A stretch of 64,000 nt of DNA, from the NCBI RefSeq assembly GCF_000970455.1, contig NZ_LAJG01000048.1, positions 124,001 to 188,000 on the forward strand, given 5' to 3'. This DNA comes from Devosia soli (GTDB lineage: Bacteria > Pseudomonadota > Alphaproteobacteria > Rhizobiales > Devosiaceae). Below the pieces are notes generated by a model. It saw only the letters and a program-made list of their open reading frames with translations, made no database searches and had not been told where the DNA came from. Shown piece by piece: positions 10,414-13,307 of the stretch. How positions within the stretch are numbered: position 1 is the first letter of the stretch; each line of letters begins with the position of its first letter. A program made the translations under genes and the position numbers.

Positions 10414-10773
10414 CACCGCCAATGATGCGCAATGGCAAACACCGACGCTTGCGGATGCGTTGGGAGCGGATGCTCACGAGGGAAAGGCAGCTTTGAGCAT
10501 ATCATGCAGATGTAGACAGAAATGGAATGGAGTCGAGAGATGCCGATTCAGCAATGCGGCCCATCTCGGACGTTAGACTGGCTTCAGCGAATTCCTCAAA
10601 GCGGACATTCCCATCACGCCGGGCGACGACCTAATCGGGGTGGAAGAACGAACCCGCTGCCGCGGGAGGGTGCGCGCGGTTGGATAACGGCGAAGGACCG
10701 GTCGTCACGGTTTGATTGAGGATCGCCTGGTTTGGGCGTTCCCTTTTGGCTCCTTCAACCCAGGAGCCCGACG
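10414..10773. other. Intergenic flank of the IS91-like element
   Basis: About 360 bases without a convincing gene. Short open frames here have neither ribosome-binding sites nor family-like sequence. It should contain the left end of the IS91-like element, but IS91 elements lack terminal inverted repeats and I cannot fix the boundary. CAGGAG at 10761-10766 is the ribosome-binding site of the integrase gene. Confidence 0.5.
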
Positions 10774-11682
10774 ATGACCACGATCCTTCCTAACGTCCCT
10801 GTCAGCCCGCTGCGCCAGAAGTTGATAGACGACATGACCATGCGCCACTTCTCGGCGGCCACCCAGCGCAATTACATCCGTGATGTGGGGCGCTTCGCAT
10901 CGTTCCTCCGGCGATCACCGGACACGGCAACCACCGAGGATGTGCGCCAGTTCCAGCTTGCTCAAAGCGAGGCCGGTGTCCCGGTGCCGACCATGAATAC
11001 CGTGGTCTCGGCGCTGCGGTTCTTCTTCGCCAATACGCTCGACCGGCCTGACCTGGCGCGCAAGCTGGTGCGCGTGAGCCATCCGCGTAACCTGCCGGTG
11101 GTATTGAGCCGCGACGAGGTCGCCCGGCTGCTCAACGCCACCACCAGCCTCAAGCATCAGGCGGCGCTGTCGGTGGCTTATGGTGCTGGGTTGCGCGTCG
11201 GCGAGGTCGCCATGCTCAAGGTGCGCGATATCGACAGCGAACGCATGATGATCCGGGTCGAGCGCGGCAAGGGCGGGCGATATCGCAATGCCATGCTCTC
11301 GCCCGACTTGCTCACCCTGTTGCGCCAGTGGTGGCATGATGGCCATCGCCAAGGGGTACTGCATCGCGATGGCTGGCTGTTTCCGGGCCAGTACGCCCTC
11401 AAGCCAATCAGCACCAGGCAGCTCTATCGCGTCGTGGTGGAGGCTGCCCACGCCGCCGAGATTACCAGGCGCGTCGGTCCACACACATTGCGGCACAGCT
11501 TTGCCACGCACCTGTTGGAAGACAGCGTCGATGTCCGCATCATCCAGGTGCTGCTAGGCCACGCCAAGCTCGAGACGACGGCGCTCTTTACCAAGGTGGC
11601 AACCCGCACGGTGCGGGCCATCATCAGTCCGCTCGACAAGCTGGGCATCTTCGTTCCGACAGAGACGCCACCCGCCCCCTGA
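10774..11682 (+). CDS. IS91-associated tyrosine recombinase, catalytic Tyr replaced by Phe
   Basis: 302-aa site-specific recombinase with an N-terminal SAM-like DNA-binding domain (residues about 10-90) and a C-terminal catalytic domain. Conserved residues are the first Arg in GAGLRVGEVA, the Lys in the ERGKGGR beta-hairpin, HTLRHSFATH (His and second Arg) and VLLGHAKLETT (third His). The position of the nucleophilic tyrosine reads ALFTKVA instead of the family pattern ALYxxVA: codon TTT at 11587-11589, one base from TAT. The start ATG at 10774 has GGAG 8 nt upstream. If the base is right, the protein can bind but not cleave DNA. Confidence 0.85.
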   Translation: MTTILPNVPVSPLRQKLIDDMTMRHFSAATQRNYIRDVGRFASFLRRSPDTATTEDVRQFQLAQSEAGVPVPTMNTVVSALRFFFANTLDRPDLARKLVRVSHPRNLPVVLSRDEVARLLNATTSLKHQAALSVAYGAGLRVGEVAMLKVRDIDSERMMIRVERGKGGRYRNAMLSPDLLTLLRQWWHDGHRQGVLHRDGWLFPGQYALKPISTRQLYRVVVEAAHAAEITRRVGPHTLRHSFATHLLEDSVDVRIIQVLLGHAKLETTALFTKVATRTVRAIISPLDKLGIFVPTETPPAP

Positions 11683-11685
11683 GCG

Positions 11686-12911
11686 GTGCGCTCCACCATC
11701 GAGGTCGCCAATATCTTCCGGACTGCCGGCCCTGCCTATCGCGCCGCCCATACCGCTCATCTGAGCCTCAGTCAGCTCAAGGTCATGTCGGCGATCGAGA
11801 CCTGCCGCACTGCTGCCCTGGGTGGCCACGTCGAAGCCTGTTCCGACTGCGGCCATCAGCGGATCGCCTACAACTCCTGCCGCAACCGGCATTGCCCGCG
11901 ATGCCAGGGCGCTGCCGCACGCGCCTGGCTCGAAGCACAAGAGGCCAATCTCCTGCCGGTCGGCTACTTCCACGTCGTCTTCACGCTGCCCGCAGAGATC
12001 GCCGACATCGCCTTCCACAACAAGGGGCTGATCTACGACCTGCTGTTCAAGGCGGCGTCCGAGACCATGCTGACGATCGCGGCCGACCGAAAACATTTGG
12101 GCGCCCGTATCGGCATGACCGCCGTGCTCCACACCTGGGGCTCGGCGATGACCCACCATCCCCACATCCACATGATCGTGCCCGGTGGCGGCATTGCGCC
12201 GGATGGTCGGTGGATCTCGTCGCGACCAGCCTTCCTGCTGCCGGTCAGGGTTCTAGGTGCGCTGTTCCGAAGATTGTTCCTGAGCAGGCTGCTTGAGCTG
12301 CACAATGCCGGAAAGCTTGCCTTCTTCGGACAAATGGCAGGACTCAACGACCGCCGGGCCTTCGTCAACCACATCGCCTCGGTCCGCAAGAAGCGCTGGA
12401 TCGTTTATGCCAAGGCGCCCTTTGCTGGGCCTGAGGCGGTGCTCGCCTATCTCTCTCGCTATACCCACCGGGTCGCCATCTCGAACAGCCGCCTGCTCCG
12501 GTTCGACGGCAAGGAGGTCACTTTCCGCTACAAGGATTACCGCCGCGCTGGCACCGACCGGCAGCAGGTCATGACCTTGGCCGCCAACGAGTTCATTCGC
12601 CGCTTCCTGATCCACGTTCTGCCACGCGGGTTCCACCGTATCCGGCACGGAGCCTGCCCCGGACTTGTTCCGGGGGCCTGCTCGCCGGCTCCGCCCGCAA
12701 GGACTGCCTTGCCCTGGCCCGCAACATGCTTGGAGTGGCGCCAGCCCCGGACGAACCCGCGGTCGAGCAGGCCACTCCGGACCTGCGCCCACCTTGTCCC
12801 TGCTGCGGCGGCGCTATGGTGATCATCGAGACCTTCGCTGCATGGTGCCAGCCGCGGGCACCGCCGACCGCGCCACCACCAAACCGGGAGACCATCAATG
12901 ACCCGGCATGA
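11686..12911 (+). pseudogene. IS91-family HUH transposase, interrupted near its C-terminus
   Basis: Rolling-circle transposase starting at a GTG at 11686. Features in order are the N-terminal zinc-binding region (CSDCGHQ and SCRNRHCPRCQG), the HUH motif HPHIHMIVPGGG, and the catalytic tyrosine region YLSRYTHRVAISNSRL. The reading frame is family-like until HRIRH (near 12649). There a net 23-base insertion carrying a perfect palindrome shifts the frame. The expected continuation GLLAGSARKDCLALARNMLG resumes at 12675 in another frame and runs to TGA at 12909-12911, including the C-terminal CPCCGGAM zinc knuckle. The shifted frame instead gives a Pro/Ala-rich tail ending at 12822. The nuclease core is intact, so residual activity is possible. 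Confidence 0.85.
12657..12675. repeat. Small palindromic element inserted in the IS91 transposase gene
   Basis: CCCCGGA and TCCGGGG form a perfect 7-bp stem around the loop CTTGT, flanked on both sides by GCCTGC (12652-12657 on the left, sharing one base with the stem, and 12676-12681 on the right). Relative to the expected coding sequence the insertion is 23 bases net. It looks like a REP/RPE-type mobile palindrome. I saw no second copy in this window. Confidence 0.65.
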
Positions 12912-13307
12912 ACTTTTGCTCGCCCAGACCGCGACATCACCATCGCGGCCCGCAGGGGACCTTGCGCCCCTCGATGGCTGGATCGTCATCACCCTCTCGA
13001 TCGGCCACATCTGCTGCCGCAGACTCCAGCGCAACGATAGCGAAATCGACTTGTTCAACCTTAGCGTCGCGGCTCAATCACACCCACCAGACGGTCCACA
13101 AGTCGGCCAAATCCAGAAAAACCCATAGCGCCCACCCCGTGGCTCGCGGGTTCGGTCTTCCCGGACTTTCGGGCGCCTACCGGCAGCCGAAACTCTTCAG
13201 GGATGCAGTCAGACCGGTTTTGACGAAAGATCCCACAAAGCAGACCTGGGCGATTGATCATCAAATAGTTGCCGTCAGCGCATGAGCGATGCAAAGCTGT
13301 AGATAAG
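12912..13307. other. Right flank of the IS91-like element, no gene recognised
   Basis: About 400 bases. Open frames here (for example from 12898 and 12908) overlap the transposase tail, have no ribosome-binding site worth noting and show no family resemblance. The right terminus of the IS should lie in this stretch. The last part, 13140-13300, may be remnant DNA from an earlier insertion, but I recognise nothing in it. Confidence 0.4.

Follow-up and report, generated by a model that had tools for sequence, protein, structure and literature searches.

Among the described systems closest to the element studied here are the CGTC-tagged REPs. Di Nocera et al. (2013, PMC3733652) describe them as mainly alphaproteobacterial, as lacking a dedicated transposase, and as occurring at times inside genes or other palindromes. 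That paper equates RPE-4 and RPE-6 with CGTC REPs and treats the mover of CGTC-type REPs as an open question. The locus examined here lies within a stretch of 64,000 nucleotides (the window) and consists of a short palindromic segment in an IS91-family transposase gene. The segment is very probably one copy of a REP-like mobile 24-nt hairpin unit, AGCCTGCCCCGGACTTGNTCCGGG, that entered a previously intact transposase gene and left no duplication of its target. This assignment, made from sequence comparison, follows from identity with other copies, an empty site in relatives, a net gain of 24 nt elsewhere, and direct repeats that do not exceed chance. The features of the locus are as follows.

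10732-11682 (+): tyrosine recombinase gene, directly upstream of the transposase gene; three plasmid loci have the two genes annotated in this order as well.
11686-12648 (+): IS91-family transposase gene, intact 5′ part, with the PF14319 zinc-binding domain and most of PF04986 Y2_Tnp.
12648-12693 (+): 7-bp inverted repeat, CGGAGCC (12648-12654) and GGCTCCG (12687-12693), part insert and part gene.
12649-12674 (+): 26-nt insert, GGAGCCTGCCCCGGACTTGTTCCGGG, replacing three bases (TAC) of the relatives, net +23.
12651-12674 (+): 24-nt repeated unit, AGCCTGCCCCGGACTTGTTCCGGG, the sequence shared with copies elsewhere.
12652-12657 (+): left GCCTGC, which belongs to the unit.
12657-12675 (+): hairpin read in the sequence, 7-bp stem CCCCGGA/TCCGGGG and 5-nt loop CTTGT.
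12676-12681 (+): right GCCTGC, transposase sequence; the same 6-mer occurs in 13 of 21 insert-free relatives.
12678-12911 (+): displaced 3′ part of the transposase frame, with a CPCC motif and a conserved end.

The gene beginning at window position 11686 is assigned to the IS91 family by matches to PF04986, PF14319 and NF033538. Its 5′ part is open for 320 codons, with no stop, up to the insert; the region around the insert, close to the 3′ end of the gene, reads CGGCAC-GGAGCCTGCCCCGGACTTGTTCCGGG-GGCCTGCTC. The frame from 12678 reads LLAGSARKDCLALARNMLG...NDPA followed by a stop and resembles the C-termini printed for 13 relatives, the DPA end being common to 12 of these. The first-pass annotation had claimed that the interrupted frame resumes after the insert, and it does continue from this point to the conserved C-terminus. 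Because neither part contains a stop, the break looks recent; the transposase is probably cut short by the frame shift. The tyrosine recombinase gene ends 3 bp upstream of the transposase gene, and this pair is also annotated on plasmids of Sphingomonas, Mesorhizobium and Sinorhizobium.

The site was compared with intact homologues. A blast search matched 24 loci besides the window's own two, and 21 were aligned; L013 ends before the site, and L019 and L027 are weak matches below the cut. The 21 same-genus rows come from 20 separate places, since L025 and L030 overlap, and some of them are identical copies in a single genome. The insert is absent from all 21 rows, most of which read CGGCA-CTAC-GGCCTG (the L018 row is more divergent at this site than the others), and also from the three plasmid relatives that were fetched and aligned. 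Plasmid records matching the query region number 302, with 38 covering at least 80% of it; in each of the 40 matches listed, the record covers a shorter span than the query does. The net 23-base insertion first proposed from the window alone is thereby confirmed as 26 bases (12649-12674) in place of three, and no homologous transposase carrying the segment was found among the 21 aligned same-genus rows and the three plasmid relatives. The palindrome, too, is present as originally described, with arms CCCCGGA (12657-12663) and TCCGGGG (12669-12675) pairing perfectly around the loop (12664-12668) and GCCTGC on both sides. Window positions 12400-12950 give no Rfam match up to E = 1.

The 24-nt unit was recognised from the flanks of copies of a shorter core. 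Within two mismatches, AGCCTGCCCCGGACTTGNTCCGGG occurs in 13 of 61 same-genus genomes, with up to 18 matches in one of them (G004; G004 and G070 hold the most copies), and its reversed control in none. Copies in nine of these 13 genomes keep AGCCTG; the other four (G003, G010, G012 and G071) contain only a CGCCTC or AGCTTC sub-type. The core, CCCGGACTTGNTCCGGG, is found at 102 places in 21 of the 61 relatives' genomes, its reversed control never, and four of these 102 palindromes, including that of the window, carry a T-loop. The host genome itself contains two copies of the unit, in the window and at C16:65134. The latter, the sole other copy found, has one mismatch and an A-loop, and no T-loop donor was found in this genome. 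A genome search for the palindrome with its GCCTGC flanks, suggested by the first-pass annotation, gave a mixed outcome. The 19-mer palindrome occurs once exactly (control 0) and CGGACTTGNTCCG nine times versus two in the control, but near-matches to the 17-mer core within three mismatches show no excess (35 versus 29 in the reversed control), and the hairpin alone, CCGGANNNNNTCCGG, is not beyond chance at 8 places versus 14. Since the short core is not enriched in this genome, the case rests on the longer exact unit.

The unit extends well beyond the genus. An exact scan of genome contigs for GAGCCTGCCCCGGACTTGTTCCGGGG returned 33 stretches, all in records titled MAG: 30 from Fibrobacter (several from one genome) and one each from Defluviicoccus, Maricaulis and Candidatus Microgenomatus. 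The exact 26-mer of the window insert recurs in Fibrobacter MAGs. Misbinning of single MAG contigs is possible; misbinning of all 30 Fibrobacter stretches is unlikely. Nine further genomes, picked for holding an exact copy, each contain 1 to 14 matches within two mismatches, with none for the control. A spread of AGCCTGCCCCGGACTTGNTCCGGG across phyla, from Alphaproteobacteria to Fibrobacter, is unusual. Neither PMC12306157 nor PMC3733652 mentions Fibrobacter in its main text, and no name for the unit appears in the titles and abstract openings that the literature searches returned; these included a search for CCCGGACTTG anywhere in the text, the matches to which are unrelated by title. As to local arrangement, one Fibrobacter genome carries three copies about 140 bp apart in similar surroundings (L153:7336-7642). 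Core copies at five same-genus loci (L083, L084, L090, L100 and L101) are paired head to head at a spacing of about 52 bp; the stem is CCCCC/GGGGG in one arm and CCCGC/GCGGG in the other.

These counts bear on two accounts that need no mobile element. An assembly or sequencing error is very unlikely: the assembly is a draft in 48 contigs and the net length is not a multiple of three, as an error might leave it, but the site is interior to a 378-kb contig, and the inserted bases are a real repeated unit, whereas an error would not yield an exact 26-mer repeated elsewhere. A one-base error beside the unit is conceivable. It is extremely improbable that the palindrome arose on the spot by local mutation, whether through slippage or through quasipalindrome correction. 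Short inverted repeats do surround the site, and a change of TAC to GG yields a perfect 7-bp repeat; it is not credible, however, that chance produced a 26-mer with exact copies in other genomes. Local mutation may account for the bordering bases only. The insert is real and is mostly explained as a REP-like insertion.

The ends of the unit are seen most directly where a host repeat exists in empty and filled forms. A common host repeat reads GGAGAAG-G-TGCCCGAAGGGCGGATGAG when empty and GGAGAAG-unit-G-TGCCCG when filled, a net difference of 24 nt. A pattern allowing both forms is matched in 33 of the 61 genus genomes, and among the matches listed there is one filled form (G014:C7:320028, net 24 nt). 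The 27 distinct host-repeat places comprise 14 empty and four filled in context A, four filled in context B and five filled in context C, with none empty in B or C; all were located by searching for either the repeat or the unit itself, and the ratio of empty to filled is thus no frequency. Because several searches fixed a G on either side of the unit, the adjoining base is not independent evidence. In IMG/VR, a search allowing any base at the loop position gave 13 stretches. Five of the contigs (L177, L178, L181, L183 and L187) represent one filled site with common flanks, the empty form of which was not found in IMG/VR; an ORF over this shared phage site (L178) was set aside as doubtful.

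The paired GCCTGC motifs had been taken as a possible target duplication, and this reading was rejected. The left motif is part of the unit and the right one part of the gene, present without the insert in 13 of 21 relatives. Of 61 distinct sites, in a list compiled using the left GCCTGC, the window copy alone is followed directly by GCCTGC. Direct repeats of at least 4 nt flank the unit at 6 of the 61 sites, and 200 shuffles of the flanks give 1 to 10.

It is improbable that a classical REP was moved by a RAYT (TnpA-REP) with GCCTGC as its 6-bp target duplication. A REP-size hairpin with identical 6-mers on either side invites such an account, as does a match to PF01797, the RAYT-type domain, over cut-off in five of the nine unit-bearing genomes outside the genus, strong in Fibrobacter G087, G089 and G090. 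However, 60 of 61 distinct sites lack GCCTGC on the right, the unit has no GTAG tag, and PF01797 is absent from the host genome, from 58 of the 61 genomes of the genus (G004 and G070, with the most copies, among them) and from the unit-bearing genomes G085, G086, G088 and G091. The same search was positive in five of 14 control genomes. PF01797 also covers IS200/IS605 transposases, and a match is not proof of a RAYT. A RAYT mover in this host is accordingly not supported, but given the matches in five of nine genomes outside the genus, a RAYT-type enzyme may act elsewhere. What survives of the original proposal, a REP/RPE-type unit in a transposase, is the repeated hairpin and the insert-free relatives, without the duplication and without a RAYT in this host.

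Over 30 non-redundant sites, flank complementarity averages 5.8 versus 4.96 over all pairings, a value reached in 4 of 20000 permutations; one outlier scoring 23 (L126) was left out of this test. This excess indicates that the unit tends to sit in or beside host inverted repeats. Nesting of the unit is seen in several different host repeats, and many other copies lie within or beside larger ones and may have been copied along with them. As one form of the REP-like insertion account, it is possible, somewhat short of an even chance, that the unit has no dedicated enzyme and is copied by replication template switching and recombination between hairpins. With the same reserve, such copying would go into other inverted repeats and rarely into genes. 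The excess complementarity, the 7-bp CGGAGCC/GGCTCCG repeat across the insert, and the nesting in different host repeats all favor template switching. Against it, 26-mer identity between Alphaproteobacteria and Fibrobacter, with constant ends in unrelated flanks, fits an enzyme-recognised element at least equally well.

These considerations allow a provisional sequence of events to be proposed for the REP-like insertion. A folded single strand would be inserted or copied, either by a trans-acting enzyme other than a host RAYT or through template switching at hairpins. Since ends and sequence persist across phyla, we lean slightly toward an enzyme in trans. A 24-nt unit equals eight codons, so a clean insertion would be frame-neutral. 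The window insert differs from the bare 24-mer, with TAC gone and extra G's beside the unit; the bordering bases would thus also have changed, either from TAC to GG or by loss of TAC and entry of 26 nt. The net gain of 23 and the frame shift would then result from this change beside the 24-nt unit. A change of TAC to GG would make CGGAGCC (12648-12654) complementary to GGCTCCG (12687-12693), and it may have been templated by the hairpin via this repeat; the chance of the two matching bases is one in sixteen.

The window copy itself is out of frame in its transposase. Elsewhere, open frames run through the unit, "in frame" here meaning an uninterrupted ORF. Across 64 distinct sites, 32 ORFs of at least 150 aa span the unit, three of them at the window's own site. 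Pfam analysis of 10 picked ORFs shows the unit separating conserved parts, or bordering on one, in four and lying upstream of the domain in one (L126); five match no family. Four ORFs that span the unit are members of conserved families: prmC, cydD and two Fibrobacter ATPase genes. The same-genus PrmC (L116:1168-2070, -; 254.9 bits versus a cut-off of 199.1) has about 35 extra residues directly before the NPPY motif, relative to HemK chain 2b3t, and its unit is in reverse orientation with one mismatch. In the same-genus CydD (L115:2-2329, +; 524.6 versus 435), about 41 extra residues stand between the membrane part and the ATPase part, and the unit lies in open frame together with its host repeat ahead of the ATPase domain. 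The third (L141, Fibrobacter), with about 25 extra residues, is an OppD/DppD-type ATPase by its matches to Pfam ABC_tran and oligo_HPY and to PDB, on which the assignment rests; it is below the cut-offs of all NCBIfam models listed. The fourth (L145:3338-5038, -, Fibrobacter) is an ABC-class ATPase by Pfam and PDB matches and the weakest of the four assignments: its PF09818 match ends at the unit, after which PF21117 matches only below cut-off, and there is no NCBIfam match. Another repeat accompanies or adjoins the unit in L115, L141 and L145 at least. The encoded peptides differ among the four genes, which read the unit in three frames on one strand and one on the other. In the L145 gene, the unit is followed by GTCATTGCGAGCGAAGCGAAGCAATCC in open frame.

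Constant ends, a host repeat seen both filled and empty, hosts lacking PF01797, and open-frame copies in genes that can be recognised together make it practical to look for the mover and for new insertions. The window copy is of use here because plain transposase sequence borders it on both sides, no larger repeat surrounds it, and the gene has many insert-free relatives. A broader proposal, which we regard as doubtful, is that some unrecognised activity of broad host range drives the active movement of a single 24-nt, eight-codon hairpin unit, the same in Alphaproteobacteria as in Fibrobacter. Such movement would need no RAYT, would leave no target duplication, and would take the unit in frame into genes as well as into, or next to, other inverted repeats.

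MITEs are short non-autonomous mobile DNA, a description that also fits the unit; it differs in having no target duplication beyond chance. The GTAG REPs associated with RAYT, as described in PMC8266576, likewise comprise one hairpin preceded on its 5′ side by a conserved stretch. In contrast, the window unit consists of AGCCTG plus stem with no GTAG, and its host has no PF01797. Rickettsia palindromic elements are similar in being palindromic repeats found in frame in unrelated protein genes (PMC10969869, PMC3733652); compared by description, they differ in being about 150 bp long and rickettsial (PMC10969869), versus 24 nt and other hosts. With the CGTC REPs, as described in PMC3733652, the unit has in common a small hairpin, a loop of 5 nt (CTTGT, within their 4-5 nt), and an occasional position inside genes or inside other palindromes; of possible movers, the PF01797 class is absent from this host. 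It differs in lacking a CGTC motif (or TGTC or CCTC), CCTG adjoining the stem one base away from CCTC; in a stem of 7 bp rather than 8-9 bp, with no A/T pairs at its base; and in having no CCA tail, the stem CCCCGGA/TCCGGGG being followed by GCCTGC. Because tag, stem base and tail differ, the unit is not classed as a CGTC REP. A same-genus copy, L092, reads GTCATCCCGGACTTGATCCGGGATCCA, with the same core and a GTC tag. The unit behaves like a CGTC REP and shares its core with this GTC-tagged copy.
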